Below are positions 23,325-30,540 of a stretch of DNA of 64,000 bases, piece by piece. Both the position numbers and the translations under genes were made by a program. Source of the DNA: Planctomycetota bacterium. Its GTDB lineage: Bacteria > Planctomycetota > Phycisphaerae > Phycisphaerales > Phycisphaeraceae. Location: assembly GCA_026386955.1 (NCBI GenBank), contig JAPLMQ010000163.1, forward strand, positions 1 through 64,000, written 5' to 3'. How positions within the stretch are numbered: position 1 is the first letter of the stretch; every line of letters begins with the position of its first letter. Below the pieces are notes generated by a model. That model was not told the origin of the DNA. It saw only the letters and a program-made list of their open reading frames with translations, and searched no databases.

Positions 23325-25328
23325 TCAGGACTCGAGGTTCAGCCACTTCACCTCGTCGGCGGTCAGCTCCACGTCGAGCGCGGGCCAAGTCGTCCGCGTC
23401 TCCTCAAGCGTGCGCGGGCCGACCAGCGGGAAGGTCGGGAACGGCTGGCAGAGCACGTAGGCCAGGGCGATGTTGATCGGCAGGACGTTCTTCTTCTTCG
23501 CCAGCTCGATGGCGCGGTCGCGGCGGCGGAAGTTGTCCTCGCTGTACCAGCAGCGCACCAGCTCGCCGTCGGACTTCTTGTCCGGGCCGGCGCGGTCGGT
23601 GAAGAACCCGCGGGCCTGGCTGGACCAAGGCATCAGCGGGAGCTGGCTCTTGGTGTGCCACGCCCGGCTGGCGGGGTCGGACGAGGCGATGCACCCGGCC
23701 CAGACGGCATCAATCATCCGCGCGAGGCTGAAGTTGTTGCTGGCGGCGGAGAAGCCCTGCAGCCCCTTCTTCTTGGCGTACTCGTTGCCGGCCTCGATGC
23801 GCGAGGTCGCCCAGTTCGAGCCGCCGAAGGCCTTGATGCTGCCCTTCTTCACCAGCTCGTTGAGCACGTCGATGAACTCGCCGACGGGGATCTCGGGGTT
23901 GTCGCGGTGCATCATGTAGATGTCGACGTAGTTGGTCCGCAGGCGCTCGAGGCTCTCCTTGTGCTGCGTGACCAGGTCCTTGGGGTTGCAGAACGGCGTG
24001 TGGGCGCCCTTGTCGAGGATGACCACCTGCTCGCGCACGCCGCGTTTCTCGACCCACCGGCCGAGGTTGCCCTCGTTGTTGGGGCCGTAGATGTGGGCGG
24101 TGTCGAACGTGTTCCCGCCGCGCTCGAAGTAGTCGTCGAACATCACGTCGGCGTGGGGCATGAAGGTCTGGTTGTCGACGCCCAGGACGAGGCGCGAGAC
24201 CTTCTTGTCGAGGTGGGCGATCTTGCCGTACTTCATCTTGTTGTTCGGGCGGAGCTTCAGAGGCTGGCCCGAGAGCGGGCCTCGCTTGGCGTCGGGCTTC
24301 TCGATGTCGTAGAGCAGCCCGATGGAGCTGCGCCACTGGTCGAGCGTGCGCATGTTGCCCAGCGAGTCGTCCCAGGTCATGGCGGGGAAGACGCCCTGCC
24401 GGCGGGCGATGTTGCGCCCGACCATGTCGGCCTCGAGGGCGTAGAGCCAGTCGGTGGTGTCGACCTCGATGACCTCGGCGGGCTTGCCGTTGACGTTGAG
24501 GTTGATGACGGTCTTGCCGCCCTCCTTCGCGGGGATCCAGGGCCAGGGGACGACGATGTTGCCGCCCGTGCCGTAGATGCGGGCGGAGTTGTCCTGGTTG
24601 ACGCCCACGCCGGTGGCGACCTGGGCGACGATGTCGCCGGGGAACTTGAGGATGCCCACGGCGTAGTCGTCCGCGCCGGTGGGGGCGAGCCTGCCCGCGC
24701 CCGAGACGGAGATCGGCTCGGCCGAGCCCTCAAGGCCCAAGGCGATGCCCGCGACCATGCGCGAGAAGGAGACTGCATAGCAGCCGACGTCAAGGATGCC
24801 GCCGCCGCCCAGTTCGTTCGCCCAGATGCGGCTGGTGGGGTTGTAGCCGGCGTGGAAGCTGAAGGTCGCTTGGATGATGCGGATGTCGCCGATGGCCTTG
24901 TTGCGGAGCAGCTCGACGAGCTTGCCGATCAGCGGGCTGCAGCGGTACATGAACGCCTCCATGAGGAAGACGTCGTGCCGGCGGGCGGCCTCGATGATCG
25001 CCTGCGTCTCGAACTGGTTCATGCCGATGGGCTTCTCGCACAGGATGTGCTTGCCGGCCTGGGCGGCCTTGATCGCCCACTCGGCGTGCATCGGGTGCGG
25101 CGTGGCGATGTAGACCGCCTCGACCGACTTGTCGGCGAGCAGGGCCTCGTACGAGCCGTGGCAGCCGGACTGGGGGAGGTTGAACTCCTTGCCGAACTTG
25201 TCGGCCGACTCCTGCGTGCGCGAGCCGATGGCGACGAACTTGCCGGTCTTGGAGTGGGCGAGGCCCTTGGCGAAGGTGCGGGCGATGCCGCCGGCGCCGA
25301 TGATGCCCCAGGCGATCGGGTTGGACAT
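23325..25328 (-). CDS. Bifunctional Gfo/Idh/MocA oxidoreductase - aldo/keto reductase fusion
   Basis: 667 residues. Residues 1 to about 340 are a Gfo/Idh/MocA dehydrogenase: NAD(P) motif GIIGAGGIA (8-16), the lysine motif CEKPIG (97-102), and an LDVGCYAVSFSR segment in the C-terminal sheet. From about 355 an aldo/keto reductase domain follows with FDTAHIYGPN, VVILDKGAH and YMMHRDNPE supplying Asp, Tyr, Lys and His. Both halves keep their key residues, so both should be active. Fusion suggests substrate passing between a sugar oxidation and a carbonyl reduction, a pairing known from planctomycetes and verrucomicrobia. GAGGATCC precedes the ATG. Confidence 0.92.
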   Translation of the reverse strand: MSNPIAWGIIGAGGIARTFAKGLAHSKTGKFVAIGSRTQESADKFGKEFNLPQSGCHGSYEALLADKSVEAVYIATPHPMHAEWAIKAAQAGKHILCEKPIGMNQFETQAIIEAARRHDVFLMEAFMYRCSPLIGKLVELLRNKAIGDIRIIQATFSFHAGYNPTSRIWANELGGGGILDVGCYAVSFSRMVAGIALGLEGSAEPISVSGAGRLAPTGADDYAVGILKFPGDIVAQVATGVGVNQDNSARIYGTGGNIVVPWPWIPAKEGGKTVINLNVNGKPAEVIEVDTTDWLYALEADMVGRNIARRQGVFPAMTWDDSLGNMRTLDQWRSSIGLLYDIEKPDAKRGPLSGQPLKLRPNNKMKYGKIAHLDKKVSRLVLGVDNQTFMPHADVMFDDYFERGGNTFDTAHIYGPNNEGNLGRWVEKRGVREQVVILDKGAHTPFCNPKDLVTQHKESLERLRTNYVDIYMMHRDNPEIPVGEFIDVLNELVKKGSIKAFGGSNWATSRIEAGNEYAKKKGLQGFSAASNNFSLARMIDAVWAGCIASSDPASRAWHTKSQLPLMPWSSQARGFFTDRAGPDKKSDGELVRCWYSEDNFRRRDRAIELAKKKNVLPINIALAYVLCQPFPTFPLVGPRTLEETRTTWPALDVELTADEVKWLNLES

Positions 25329-25818: not shown

Positions 25819-26364
25819 TCACTCGCGGACCGTTTTCTCGCCGACTGCCAAGCCCACTGGCCGCTTCGCCCCGCACTCTGGGCAGTCGCCCTCCGCCGGG
25901 CTGCCGCGCAGGTCGTAGCCGCACGACGTGCAGCAGCTGACGAGCGCGCGGCGGCGGCGGAAATCACGCACCCACAGCACCGGCAGCGGGATCGACAACA
26001 GGATGAGGAACCAGCATGGAATCAAGGCCAGGAACTTCGGCCCGCCATCCCTGTGGACATGCAGAAAACCAAGCGATTGGACCCACGGAGGCGTCATGAA
26101 CCCCCAGTACGCCATGATCTCGCGACGACTCACCGGCGGCTCCATGAAAAACAAGAACTCGCTCGACGTTGGGCCGAAGGCGTCCCCTGAATCGAACCCC
26201 ACAAAGGCTCCTCCGGCGACTAGGAACAACTTCACGTCATGGTGCCCGAGCCCTCTCCAAACCACGCCCACGCCTGTGAAACAACTGGCGACCCATCCCG
26301 TCGCCGCGACAACGACGACGAACAGAGACATGGCCGCGGCGAGGTTGAAGAGCATCCGTCTCAT
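25819..26364 (-). CDS. Two-TM zinc-ribbon paralogue 1
   Basis: ATG 26364 overlaps the stop of the upstream paralogue as ATGA. 181 residues: TM1 near the N-terminus (MRRMLFNLAAAMSLFVVVVA), an exported domain of about 90 residues (about 30-120), TM2 (FLALIPCWFLILLSIPLPVL), a basic patch (RDFRRRRALVS) and a Cys4 ribbon (CTSCGYDLRGS then CPECGAKRP). By the positive-inside rule the ribbon should be cytoplasmic. This ribbon tail is common in planctomycete proteins but I know no assigned function. It is the last gene of a coupled run of four. Confidence 0.85.
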   Translation of the reverse strand: MRRMLFNLAAAMSLFVVVVAATGWVASCFTGVGVVWRGLGHHDVKLFLVAGGAFVGFDSGDAFGPTSSEFLFFMEPPVSRREIMAYWGFMTPPWVQSLGFLHVHRDGGPKFLALIPCWFLILLSIPLPVLWVRDFRRRRALVSCCTSCGYDLRGSPAEGDCPECGAKRPVGLAVGEKTVRE

Positions 26365-26921
26365 GGCGCGCCCTTGGAATACGCGGACACGCTCGTCGCA
26401 TTGCCGGCCGTCGCCCCGCACTCCGGGCAGTCTCCCCCCGGCGGGCTGCCGCGCAGGTCGTAGCCGCAGGCGGGGCAGCAGCCCGGGCCGAATCTCCGGC
26501 GTCGGCGCCACGCGCGGAACCAAGCAATCGGCATGGGCAGCGACGCGAGAATGACGAACCAGAACGGAACCATCAGAAACGTGCCGTCGCCGCCGAGCCC
26601 AGGCGTGATGATGAAGCCGGCGGAACAGATCAATGCGTGCCCCTTGTAATAATCGAGCTGGCCTCCGAAGACTTCAACGAACAGGCCTTCATCGATGCGT
26701 ATCTCCGGAAGCCCGTAACCATGGGGGTCATCCTCCGGCGACGCCCATCCAATCTCCATGGCCAATCCGCCCGCTGCGCACCCGAATGCCAAGACATCGG
26801 TCTTGGGCGTGCAGAAATGGATGAACACCGAGTGCTGGACGCTCACTGCCCACCCCACCGCCGCCGCGAGGCCAATGAGCAGCGATGCCAGGGCCGCGAA
26901 GTTGAAAATCGACCGCTTCAT
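26361..26921 (-). CDS. Two-TM zinc-ribbon paralogue 2
   Basis: Start at ATG 26921, which overlaps the preceding paralogue's stop by four bases. 186 residues with the same plan: TM1 (MKRSIFNFAALASLLIGLAA), a divergent exported middle part (HSVFIHFCTPKTDVLAFGCA onward), TM2 (FLMVPFWFVILASLPMPIAW), an Arg run (RAWRRRRRFG), then CPACGYDLRGS and CPECGATAG. The exported part shares almost nothing with paralogue 1, whereas both TM segments and the ribbon are conserved, a pattern of one constant frame carrying variable outside domains. Confidence 0.85.
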   Translation of the reverse strand: MKRSIFNFAALASLLIGLAAAVGWAVSVQHSVFIHFCTPKTDVLAFGCAAGGLAMEIGWASPEDDPHGYGLPEIRIDEGLFVEVFGGQLDYYKGHALICSAGFIITPGLGGDGTFLMVPFWFVILASLPMPIAWFRAWRRRRRFGPGCCPACGYDLRGSPPGGDCPECGATAGNATSVSAYSKGAP

Positions 26922-27508
26922 GACGGGCCCTTGGTGGCCAATGGCGATTCCACCCCCGCCGGCCTCGTCGCCCCGCACTCCGGGCAGTCGCCCTCCGGCG
27001 GGCTGCCGCGGAGGTCGTAACCGCACGACGTGCAGCAGCCCGAGGCGATCGCGCGCCGGCGGGTCCAGAGGCCGCGAGCCCAGATCAACGGGAGCGGCAA
27101 AGACAACAGCAAGACGAGCCAACAGGGGACAAGCACGAAGCTCCGGATGGTGGTCCCCGTTCCGAGAGGCAAGACGACCAGGCCACGAGACGGCTTCCAA
27201 ACGATAGCCTCGTTCACAAGCTCAATGACATCGATTTCGTCCAAGTAGGGATCGGACCCGACTCGTCCATCCATGAAGCAGCTGAAGCGGAGCCGCTTGA
27301 TGGGCGGCTCAAAAATCACATTCGGTTGCCATACCACCAAACGCAGCCCCGAGGTGCCGAGACTTGATGAGGCCATTCCTTGCGATGGTCCCCTGACATG
27401 GACACGGACTTCTGCCCTCATGAAATGACTCGCGACCCACCCCAACGCCGACGCGAGGGCGATGGCGAGTGAAAACATGCAAGCGAACTTGTAGAGGCGG
27501 CGCTTCAT
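26918..27508 (-). CDS. Two-TM zinc-ribbon paralogue 3
   Basis: ATG 27508, 196 residues, coupled to its neighbours by ATGA overlaps on both sides. TM1 MKRRLYKFACMFSLAIALAS; exported domain with RGPSQGMASSSLGTSGLRLV and a predicted strand-rich character; TM2 FVLVPCWLVLLLSLPLPLIW; ribbon CTSCGYDLRGS and CPECGATRP. Its exported domain is recognisably related to that of paralogue 5 (shared GTSGLR and a following QP motif), and the ribbon-coding DNA of the two is almost identical over about 85 bp. Confidence 0.85.
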   Translation of the reverse strand: MKRRLYKFACMFSLAIALASALGWVASHFMRAEVRVHVRGPSQGMASSSLGTSGLRLVVWQPNVIFEPPIKRLRFSCFMDGRVGSDPYLDEIDVIELVNEAIVWKPSRGLVVLPLGTGTTIRSFVLVPCWLVLLLSLPLPLIWARGLWTRRRAIASGCCTSCGYDLRGSPPEGDCPECGATRPAGVESPLATKGPS

Positions 27509-28059
27509 CCCGGAGCCTTGGCCTCGTGTGCCGACTCCGTCTCCGCCGCCCGCTTCGCCCCGCACTCGGGGCAGTCGCCACCTGCAGGGCTGCCGCGGAG
27601 GTCGTAGCCGCAGGAGGGGCAGCAGCCCGGGCCTATCGATCGGCGTCGGAGCCAAGCGCGCAGCCAGAGGATGGGCAGAGGCAGCGCCGCAAGGAGGAGG
27701 AACCAGCACGGAACGATGACGTCAACCCCGCTACGGCCCAGATGTTCGCTTCGCGTCACGAAAAATCCGCCCCCGGAAAACCCGTGTTGCGCTTGGAAGT
27801 TTCGTTCGGACTCGAAATCCCTGAAGTTCGCGGCGGGCTTGAGAACAATCCCACGATAGCCCCACGCATCGGCGCCAGGGGACGTATTTGCGAATACGCC
27901 CACACAGCCGGCGCACAGCCCCACGCCGGAATCTTCGAACCGCGGCACATTGACGACGACAGACGCCGTCAAGAACAGGCTTGTCGCCCACGCGGCCGCC
28001 GTGGCAAGGGCGAGGAGCAGGGAGAGGAAGGCTGCGAGGGTGAAGAGCCAGCGTTTCAC
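27505..28059 (-). CDS. Two-TM zinc-ribbon paralogue 4
   Basis: The start is best placed at GTG 28059, where the family N-terminus (VKRWLFTLAAFLSLLLALAT) begins; an ATG 36 bp upstream adds a leader absent from the paralogues. 184 residues. The exported domain has two Cys (GLCAGCVG). TM2 VIVPCWFLLLAALPLPILWL; ribbon CPSCGYDLRGS and CPECGAKRA. It is the first gene of the four-gene coupled run 28059 to 25819; an R5 repeat element separates it from paralogue 5. Confidence 0.82.
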   Translation of the reverse strand: MKRWLFTLAAFLSLLLALATAAAWATSLFLTASVVVNVPRFEDSGVGLCAGCVGVFANTSPGADAWGYRGIVLKPAANFRDFESERNFQAQHGFSGGGFFVTRSEHLGRSGVDVIVPCWFLLLAALPLPILWLRAWLRRRSIGPGCCPSCGYDLRGSPAGGDCPECGAKRAAETESAHEAKAPG

Positions 28060-28125
28060 GCCGCAATCGTACCTATGGCAGCGCTCGGCACGCACGGCGA
28101 TCGAGGTGATTGGTTGACGCCTCCC

Positions 28126-28224
28126 GTTAGCCGGACGCGCAAGCGACGCCGTTGGGCGTCCGGCGTGACGTTGCGTTCTCGGTTGACCGGACGGTCCTCG
28201 CCGTCGCTTGCGCGTCCGGCTAAC
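28126..28224. repeat. Family R5 element (99 bp) between paralogues 4 and 5
   Basis: GTTAGCCGGACGCGCAAGCG (from 28126) is mirrored by CGCTTGCGCGTCCGGCTAAC (ending 28224), a 23-bp perfect inverted repeat. The interior is GC-rich and non-coding. The right end overlaps the 3' end of paralogue 5 and provides its TAG stop. Confidence 0.85.
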
Positions 28225-28792
28225 AAGACTCGCCTTTCAGCGCCTCCGCCGCCCTCTTCGCCCCGCACTCCGGGCAGTCGCCCTCCGGCGGGCTGCCGCG
28301 GAGGTCGTAGCCGCACGACGTGCAGCAGCCCGAGGCGATTGCGCGCCGGCGGCCACGCCACCCGCGAGCACAAAGCAACGGGAGCGGCAGGAACAACAAC
28401 AGGATGAGCCAGCAGGGGATGAGAATGACCCTATCGAGGAGCAACCCAACTCCGTGAGGCAGGATGATCAGGCCCAAGGCTTGATTCAAGATGATTGCCC
28501 CCGGCTCAGGGAACATGAATTCGTCGAAGCAAGGATCAGGCCCGACCTGCCTATCGTCAAAGCCATCGAATCCAAATCCCCTCATGGTCGGCCCAAAATC
28601 CACGCCCGGCTGGTAGGTCAACACCCGCAGGCCCGAGGTGCCGAGAGTCAAGAAGACCATCCCACGCGTCGGCACCCTGAAATGGACGCCGACGCCGCCC
28701 CCCATGAAACAACTCGTCACCCACCCCACCGCCGCCGCGAGGGCGATGAGGAGCGACAGCGTGGCGGCGAAGTTGAAGAGCCTGCGTTTCAT
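28220..28792 (-). CDS. Two-TM zinc-ribbon paralogue 5
   Basis: ATG 28792 follows the TAG stop of paralogue 6 directly (TAGATG). 190 residues: TM1 MKRRLFNFAATLSLLIALAA, exported domain related to that of paralogue 3, TM2 VILIPCWLILLLFLPLPLLC, ribbon CTSCGYDLRGS and CPECGAKRA. The C-terminal GESC and the stop codon are encoded by the inverted end of an R5 repeat, so element insertion has reset the gene's end. Confidence 0.87.
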   Translation of the reverse strand: MKRRLFNFAATLSLLIALAAAVGWVTSCFMGGGVGVHFRVPTRGMVFLTLGTSGLRVLTYQPGVDFGPTMRGFGFDGFDDRQVGPDPCFDEFMFPEPGAIILNQALGLIILPHGVGLLLDRVILIPCWLILLLFLPLPLLCARGWRGRRRAIASGCCTSCGYDLRGSPPEGDCPECGAKRAAEALKGESC

Positions 28793-29347
28793 CTAAGGAG
28801 CCTTGGCGTCCAGCACAGTCCCCGCCTCCGCAGCCCTCTTCGCCCCGCATTCCGGGCAGTCGCCCCCCGGCGGGCTGCCGCGGAGGTCGTAGCCACAGGC
28901 CTTGCAGCAGCCCACGAGCGAGCGGCGGCGGACGCGACGAGCGCGGACCCACAGGGCCGGCAGCGGGATCGAGAGAAGGATGATGAACCAGCACGGGAGC
29001 ATGACGACCGCGTAGTGGTCCGTCCGATTGAGATGCACGACGAAACCCCGGCGAATGAAAATGATCTCGCTGCGGACATCGTCGTAGTTGGGATCCGCTA
29101 TCGAGTTGAAACTCCTGGGCGGAGAGACCTGCAAATGCGGTTCTTCCCACGCGGTCATTCCGGTCATGGTCTCCCACTCGACGCCCAATGAGACCCCGCC
29201 CGCCACGAGGTTGGCGTGAATGGTATTTCTTGGCCCGATCTGCAAGACACTGAACGACCAAAATGCAGTGGCCACCCAGCCCACCAACGCCGCGACGGCG
29301 ATCAGCATCGACACGGCGGCTGCGAAGGTGAGGAGCCTTTGCATCAT
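28793..29347 (-). CDS. Two-TM zinc-ribbon paralogue 6
   Basis: First gene of the pair 6-5. 184 residues: TM1 MMQRLLTFAAAVSMLIAVAA, exported domain of about 85 residues (NTIHANLVAGGVSLGVEWET onward) unlike the others, TM2 YAVVMLPCWFIILLSIPLPA, basic linker RARRVRRRSLVG, ribbon CKACGYDLRGS and CPECGAKRA. A double ATG starts the gene. The upstream gap 29348-29688 contains an R5 pair, an R6 hairpin and, further on, the leader of the divergent dioxygenase gene. Confidence 0.87.
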   Translation of the reverse strand: MMQRLLTFAAAVSMLIAVAALVGWVATAFWSFSVLQIGPRNTIHANLVAGGVSLGVEWETMTGMTAWEEPHLQVSPPRSFNSIADPNYDDVRSEIIFIRRGFVVHLNRTDHYAVVMLPCWFIILLSIPLPALWVRARRVRRRSLVGCCKACGYDLRGSPPGGDCPECGAKRAAEAGTVLDAKAP

Positions 29348-29411
29348 GGTTCAATCGTAACGGCGACGGGTGTTGGTTGGCGCGGGAATCGAGGTTGGGG
29401 TGATGGGGTTT

Positions 29412-29520
29412 GTTTGCCGGAAGCGCAAGCGACGGAGGTTTGCTTGGTTTTTCCGCGAGCATCAGGCGATGTCGGTCATCTCAAGCGAACCAACATCCGT
29501 CGCTTGCGCGTCCGGCTAAC
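29412..29520. repeat. Family R5 element (109 bp)
   Basis: GCCGGAAGCGCAAGCGACGG near 29416-29435 pairs with CCGTCGCTTGCGCGTCCGGC near 29497-29516 (ends 29412 and 29520). The interior is unrelated to that of the copy at 28126, so the ends move or duplicate independently of the middle. Confidence 0.8.
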
Positions 29521-29536
29521 AAGACCATGAAATCTG

Positions 29537-29688: not shown

Positions 29689-30540
29689 ATGGCTGAACCA
29701 CAAGGCGACCCGCGGCTGCTGCGTTTCTTCCCCGCCTCGGGCGAGAACCTCCGCCGGCTGACGCGCGAGCAGGTGCGCCACTACAACGTGCGCGGGTACG
29801 TCAAGCCGCTCTCGATCTACACGCCCGAGCAGGCCGACTTCAACCGCGCCCGGTTCGACACGCTGCTCGACGAGATCGCGCGGGCCAACGACGGGCGCGA
29901 CGCCTACTCCATCAACGGCTACCAGGCCCAGGTCGCCAGCATCTGGGACATCATCGTCCACCCGGTGATCCTCGACTTCGTGCAGGACATCCTCGGCCCC
30001 GACTTCGTGGCGTGGGGCACGCACTACTTCTGCAAGATGCCCGGCGACCCGCGCCACGTGCCCTGGCACCAAGACGCCTCGTACTGGCCCTTGACGCCCT
30101 CGCGCACCGTCACCGCCTGGCTGGCGATCGACGACGCCGACGCCGACAACGGCGCGATGAAGGTCATCCCCGGGACGCACGTGCACGGGCACCTGCCCTT
30201 CGAGAACGCCAAGCCCGACGAGAAGGTCGTGCTGCACCAGAAGGTGCTGGGCGTCGAGCGGTTCGATCCGCCGGAGTACATCGACCTCAAGGCCGGGCAG
30301 ATCTCGCTCCACTCCGACATGCTGGTGCACGGGTCGGACCCGAACCTGTCGAGCCGGAGGCGTTGCGGGCTGACGATCCGCTACGCGGCCTGCGACGTGC
30401 GCTCGACCGCGGGGTGGAACAAGAACGCGATCATCTGCCGCGGGACCGATCCCTCGGGGCATTGGGGGAACATCCCCCGGCCCACGACCGACTCGTCGAT
30501 GGCGATGGCGTGGCAGAAGAAGGTGGCGGTGGAGACGTGA
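29689..30540 (+). CDS. Phytanoyl-CoA dioxygenase family protein (Fe(II)/2-oxoglutarate type)
   Basis: 283 residues. The iron-binding facial triad is visible: H127 and D129 in VPWHQDASYW, and the later His in MLVHGSDPN. The 2-oxoglutarate-binding Arg is probably in SRRRCGLTIRYA. AVKVIPGTH-like sequence (NGAMKVIPGTHVHGHL) is the conserved strand before the second His. These enzymes hydroxylate or halogenate small molecules; the substrate cannot be read here. Planctomycetes carry many such genes. A second, distinct copy lies at 40275. Confidence 0.9.
   Translation: MAEPQGDPRLLRFFPASGENLRRLTREQVRHYNVRGYVKPLSIYTPEQADFNRARFDTLLDEIARANDGRDAYSINGYQAQVASIWDIIVHPVILDFVQDILGPDFVAWGTHYFCKMPGDPRHVPWHQDASYWPLTPSRTVTAWLAIDDADADNGAMKVIPGTHVHGHLPFENAKPDEKVVLHQKVLGVERFDPPEYIDLKAGQISLHSDMLVHGSDPNLSSRRRCGLTIRYAACDVRSTAGWNKNAIICRGTDPSGHWGNIPRPTTDSSMAMAWQKKVAVET

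Follow-up and report, generated by a model that had tools for sequence, protein, structure and literature searches.

What are proteins for that repeat one membrane frame in copy after copy and carry a different exported domain on nearly every copy? The question is raised by six adjacent genes, p1 to p6, on the reverse strand at positions 25819–29347 of a 64,000-nucleotide window (the whole stretch of DNA analysed here; contig C240, JAPLMQ010000163.1, of the 6.47-Mb draft genome GCA_026386955.1 of a Planctomycetota bacterium). Each of the six products has the same plan: a first transmembrane helix (TM1), an exported domain of 83–97 residues (hereafter the head), a second helix (TM2), a basic patch and a four-cysteine, putatively zinc-binding ribbon. 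We consider it reasonably, though not strongly, probable that tandem members of this family combine a constant frame with an exchangeable exported head, that the frame DNA recombines, and that the heads bind changing partners while the ribbon docks to one partner.

The reading frames of all six genes are intact and their products are 181–196 residues long. The first gene is p6 (28793–29347; 184 amino acids (aa)), abutted at a TAGATG by p5 (28220–28792; 190 aa); after a 160-bp gap containing an inverted repeat come p4 (27505–28059; 184 aa, GTG start), p3 (26918–27508; 196 aa), p2 (26361–26921; 186 aa) and p1 (25819–26364; 181 aa), with ATGA overlaps at p4/p3, p3/p2 and p2/p1. The initial annotation had the genes overlapping by ATGA or abutting throughout, which is correct for four junctions and wrong for p5/p4; because of the 160-bp gap not every pair is joined. 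Both helices are evident from hydropathy in all six proteins, and CxxCGYDLRGSP..GDCPECGA, including its four cysteines, is unchanged in all of them, which together with the intact frames confirms six paralogous two-TM ribbon proteins. All six carry the features by which we define the two-TM CGYDLRG-tailed family (TM1, exported head, TM2, basic patch, CxxCGYDLRG...CPECG), the segment limits being set by hand, and all six score under the curated cut-offs of the Pfam zinc-ribbon families. The positive-inside rule is the basis for placing both ends of such a protein in the cytosol: the first six residues include one to three basic and no acidic ones, and the loop after TM2 four to six basic and at most one acidic. 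Since basic residues thus flank TM1 on its N-terminal side and TM2 on its C-terminal side, the proteins are predicted to be N-in/C-in with a cytosolic ribbon, so that the cytoplasmic ribbon claimed earlier stands as a prediction from charge distribution.

The exported parts had been described as mostly unrelated, and they are, except for p3/p5 and, weakly, p4/p6. Head identity is 11–29% in 14 of the 15 pairs and 41% for p3/p5; against shuffled heads, p3/p5 scores z 17.1 and p4/p6 z 4.8, the remaining 13 pairs lying between −0.7 and 3.3, and at the DNA level p3/p5 reaches z 32.9 and no other pair exceeds 3.5. The proportions of nonsynonymous and synonymous differences (pN/pS) between the p3 and p5 heads are 0.35/0.43. 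AlphaFold2 predicts for p6 an all-beta head with seven strands between the helices (mean predicted local distance difference test score, pLDDT, 80.4), and a weaker model of p5 (69.6) has a similar strand order, an agreement that is not independent evidence because both models were built on the same 13 sequences. Foldseek gave no match at an expectation value (E) of 0.001 (best 0.016, TM-score 0.21); a further fold comparison peaked at Z 5.7 (CcmF), with sliding-clamp rows near 4, and no fold was assigned. A sequence search of the PDB gave no usable relative, the best whole-ribbon alignment being to bL32 (E 0.031). When a hidden Markov model (HMM) was made of 35 other heads, none of the six array heads ranked above all shuffles, and the reverse search with an HMM of the array heads found one of the 35 (hhalign probability 0.3%). 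Common ancestry of all the heads is neither shown nor excluded, and the sequence profiles give no sign of it. Two glycine columns that looked conserved were dropped because shuffled heads yield equally conserved columns.

In the constant part, likeness extends to the DNA. The ribbon and basic-patch DNA of p3 (26970–27064) and p5 (28260–28354), both on the reverse strand, agrees at 91 of 95 bases, and 84 of 86 bases match in the interval that the initial annotation had called almost identical; in the same ungapped register beyond 27064, towards TM2 and the head, agreement is 49/66 and then 59/110. Among the six ribbons the same codon is used at 261 of 309 sites with identical amino acids (0.845). 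The expectation is 0.700 from the codon usage of four Pfam-verified neighbouring genes and 0.669 from the ribbon's own GC content at third codon positions (GC3), and none of 2000 shuffles reached the observed rate in either case. The four-gene null (GC3 0.964) replaced one built from 12 open reading frames of the window (GC3 0.77, several without Pfam support), and the conclusion is the same under both. The heads (0.426) and TM2 (0.434) are at or under expectation with the GC3-matched null; for TM1 and the basic patch the plain null leaves no excess, 866 and 651 of 2000 shuffles reaching the observed rate, and an excess emerges only with the GC3-matched one (10/2000 and 32/2000). Over 15 ribbon codons the array scores 0.830 versus 0.575 for 30 dispersed members in the same genome (0.58 in a nine-codon version), and none of 2000 random sets of six reached the array. 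Because the ribbon codons agree more often than either codon usage or the comparison with dispersed paralogues would allow, and TM2 and the heads are saturated, the synonymous sites support the gene conversion of the constant part that had been suggested for this locus.

The array was the seventh of seven multi-copy sets in which ribbon codons were compared. Homogenisation is strong in C211 of genome G033 (39/51 same codons, expected 0.51), in C49 of G009 (16/18, expected 0.56) and in a pair on C304 of the window's own genome, which shares 21/21 ribbon and 21/23 TM1 codons and has heads 27% identical. Dispersed genes of G034 have TM1 codons in common (105/161, expected 0.32).

As the window's genus is represented by a single genome, the conservation of heads between species was checked at syntenic loci of two related genera, g291 and g16. 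Each of three g291 species has three family genes between TruA (Pfam PseudoU_synth_1) and glycosyltransferase genes. Between species the TruA proteins are 88% identical (pS 0.27–0.34) and the glycosyltransferases 91–92% (pS 0.22–0.36), and the heads are at most 34% identical in all 27 inter-species pairs; TM1 has a pS of 0.18–0.34 in 7 of these 27, and one of 21 inter-species pairs of head DNA reaches z 3.5, with none above. G463_4, which is not of the array, was left out, and G584.3, which has CPECA instead of CPECG, is absent from the first g291 comparison and present in the 27-pair one. A genus-wide search with a profile including the heads of two species found no displaced array.

At locus 2 of g16 (G023, G027, G024) the adjoining Pyr_redox_2 gene is 89–90% identical (pS 0.28–0.38), the ribbons are 79–96% identical with a pS of 0.19–0.30, close to that of the flank, TM1 and TM2 are saturated, and the heads are 15–24% identical. 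At locus 1, G028 and G027 have a flank of 90% (pS 0.33), a ribbon pS of 0.34 and heads of 18%, and G028 and G026 a flank of 86% and heads of 42%; for G023, the first g16 comparison lacked G588 locus-1 or flank data. A head pS taken from alignments of unrelated sequence signifies absence of similarity and nothing more. As a control, a headless three-TM ribbon protein in genus g13 (L160, L175, L169) is 66% identical beside a flank of 76%. The tail of this protein, CFYDLR or CLYDLR, is conserved between the species.

At the g291 locus and at g16 locus 2 the flanks are 88–92% alike, the heads resemble each other barely or not at all, and TM1 or the ribbon is often at species-level divergence; the heads are therefore, as far as sequence comparison tells, replaced rather than mutated. 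The flank distance is too small for point mutation to have erased synonymous and other sites in the head and nowhere else, which implies either replacement or a turnover in which whole variants are lost and gained and the tail is converted. Such wholesale change does not look like the point changes of a diversity-generating retroelement target, for which no search was made. An invertible or frameshifted variable gene was rejected: on both strands the head DNA of the six fully replaced g16 pairs is dissimilar (z −1.2 to 0.7), although reads were not used to look for silent copies within one cell.

Several observations weigh against replacement and recombination. All the evidence for head turnover comes from related genera and none from the window's own locus. 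At g16 locus 1, G028 and G023 retain their head (77% identity, pS 0.27, pN 0.13), so the hypervariability proposed earlier is borne out between sister species at related-genus loci with one orthologous pair as an exception. A donor was sought for one replaced head and not found, the best non-self match having E 0.08. Of the seven multi-copy sets, one is weakly homogenised, G033 C107 (85/161, expected 0.43), and two are not homogenised at all, G033 C521 (26/72, expected 0.44) and G000 C26 (9/19, expected 0.42). In a breakpoint scan of 60 triplets no p value, the lowest being 0.005, survived Bonferroni correction. An appearance of replacement could also arise if old tandem paralogues were lost differentially and their tails evolved in concert.

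In the reading that we prefer, a constant frame with exchangeable heads, the conserved frame DNA would be the homology where copies recombine, and recombination would homogenise the frame while heads are swapped or gained. With less certainty, the heads may each bind a partner of their own, one that changes and lies beyond the inner membrane, and through the ribbon and basic patch that they have in common all copies may dock or report to the same cytosolic partner; the array would then be a small set of recognition heads feeding a single output. The receptor or recognition array proposed in the initial annotation fits this constant and variable plan, although the metabolic flanks and the viral and defence searches described below lend it no help. 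An enzymatic or structural role is disfavoured, no head feature being retained. Constant-frame proteins with exchangeable heads are characteristic of recognition or conflict, and syntenic loci of sister species pinpoint the replacement and supply heads that can be compared in matched pairs on a shared frame.

The array is part of a larger family. A profile of the six proteins matches 58 places in the window's own genome; among 51 genomes of the same taxonomic family, that one included, 45 are matched. When 294 genomes of the phylum were searched with a profile built from 41 two-TM members (E 1e-6), 41 had matches, 38 of 44 within the order versus 3 of 250 outside it, some matches being to the ribbon only; by these profiles the family has many members and is concentrated in a single planctomycete order. 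Among 17 loci confirmed in named genomes, 16 are planctomycete and one is from the Vicinamibacteraceae. Tandem copies occur elsewhere: G033 has five full genes and a fragment on C107, a set of four on C521 and one of three on C211, and g291 has three genes per species. The same tail also terminates three-TM and larger membrane proteins. With an E of no more than 0.01, Pfam DZR, Zn_Ribbon_1 and Zn_ribbon_3 match 14, 8 and 4 of the 41 members, and the heads match none of them. No paper describing the family was found, as judged from titles and abstract openings, and the motif strings matched no paper; in the searches made the heads, borne on a constant frame throughout a bacterial order, fell into no named family. 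An order-wide repertoire, with many frame copies per genome, one ribbon output and species-specific swapped heads directed at rivals, phages or self/nonself, is a tentative extension that we think rather unlikely as it stands.

Some family loci have features of their own. At L217 and L221 (C304 and C206 of the window's genome) the family genes have a GC3 of 0.62–0.75, most neighbours having 0.90–0.98, and they can be recognised by codon usage alone because their GC3 is so far below. At L195:1411–2007 (G331, outside the order), TM1, head and TM2 are followed by a hydrophobic segment in place of the ribbon, and at L111:1301–2428 the ribbon is followed by about 200 extra residues with another hydrophobic stretch.

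The most serious rival, possible and yet clearly less probable than the reading above, is an ordinary birth-and-death family with rapid gain and loss of duplicates, weakly constrained drift of the heads, concerted tails and no selection for recognition. It would account for the 58 matches in one genome, for the lack of an orthologue in congeneric species for most two-TM members (g16 has one orthologue set), for the low GC3 at L217 and L221, which fits weak codon selection, and for a pN/pS below 1 in the p3/p5 and G028/G023 heads. It sits less well with six intact frames and a p6 head that is predicted to fold. In g291 all three species keep three copies, yet no pair of heads exceeds 34%, so birth-and-death would require a large stock of ancient paralogues with losses to match.

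An immunity or defence array, the receptor proposal in its strongest version, in which the heads would act in the periplasm and sense or neutralise phage proteins or the toxins of rivals, we regard as doubtful. It would be expected to show tandem copies, replacement between species and a constant frame that bears variable exported domains, and the GC content of the array heads (0.57–0.61) is below that of the window (0.685). The metabolic neighbourhood speaks against it: a GFO/IDH/MocA and aldo/keto reductase gene (23325–25328) and a PhyH-family gene (29689–30540) flank the array, with UxaE and FA_synthesis among the further neighbours, and in g291 the flanks are TruA and glycosyltransferase. 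PADLOC gave two isolated weak matches among the 41 members, one to ThsA1 (E 5.5e-4) and one to DrmB (E 7.8e-3), no toxin, immunity or trafficking domain was found among them in Pfam, and none of 47 pattern matches in viral contigs was confirmed as a relative. That the ribbon DNA is alike through a constraint on DNA or RNA and not through conversion is very improbable: the confinement of the likeness to the ribbon and, less, to TM1 and the basic patch would suit it, but the same residues show no excess in the 30 dispersed genes of the same genome, and neither equally constrained dispersed members nor a conserved structure was seen.

The intergenic DNA of the array contains repeats. An inverted repeat at 28126–28224, between p5 and p4, is built from a palindrome dispersed in the genome, and a second lies at 29410–29522, upstream of p6. 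The palindrome, GCCGGACGCGCAAGCGACG, resembles repetitive extragenic palindromic (REP) elements. It has seven copies in the window (20739, 28130, 28202, 29416, 29498, 40007 and 40159) versus 0.02 expected, and 427 copies in the genome with at most one mismatch versus none for the reversed control; the copies are often inverted pairs about 70 bp apart.

Among known systems, the ribbons share the CxxC...CxxC pattern of Pfam DZR, Zn_Ribbon_1 and Zn_ribbon_3, whereas the array proteins fall under the cut-offs of these families. The SHOCT domain is likewise a short C-terminal module on many different proteins with no known role, but it is reported to be widespread in bacteria (PMC3581485), whereas the four-cysteine ribbon is mostly found in one order and on membrane proteins. 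Polymorphic toxin systems also join a constant part to exchangeable domains and have tandem variants; here, in contrast, what is exchanged is an internal segment enclosed by two TM helices, and Pfam shows no toxin, trafficking or immunity domain. The VARTIG proteins of Thermococcales are reported to be large secreted immunoglobulin-domain proteins encoded in shuffled archaeal gene islands (PMC8416519). They resemble the array in being lineage-restricted exported proteins with a hypervariable outer domain, which in VARTIG varies by recombination and here may do so, an otherwise conserved sequence and no known function. The array proteins differ in being small and two-TM with a predicted cytosolic ribbon, in their many copies per genome and in their place among ordinary genes, and no immunoglobulin family of Pfam matches the 41 members at E 0.01. 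Judged by its published description, VARTIG appears to be the nearest system in working principle, differing in size, topology and setting.

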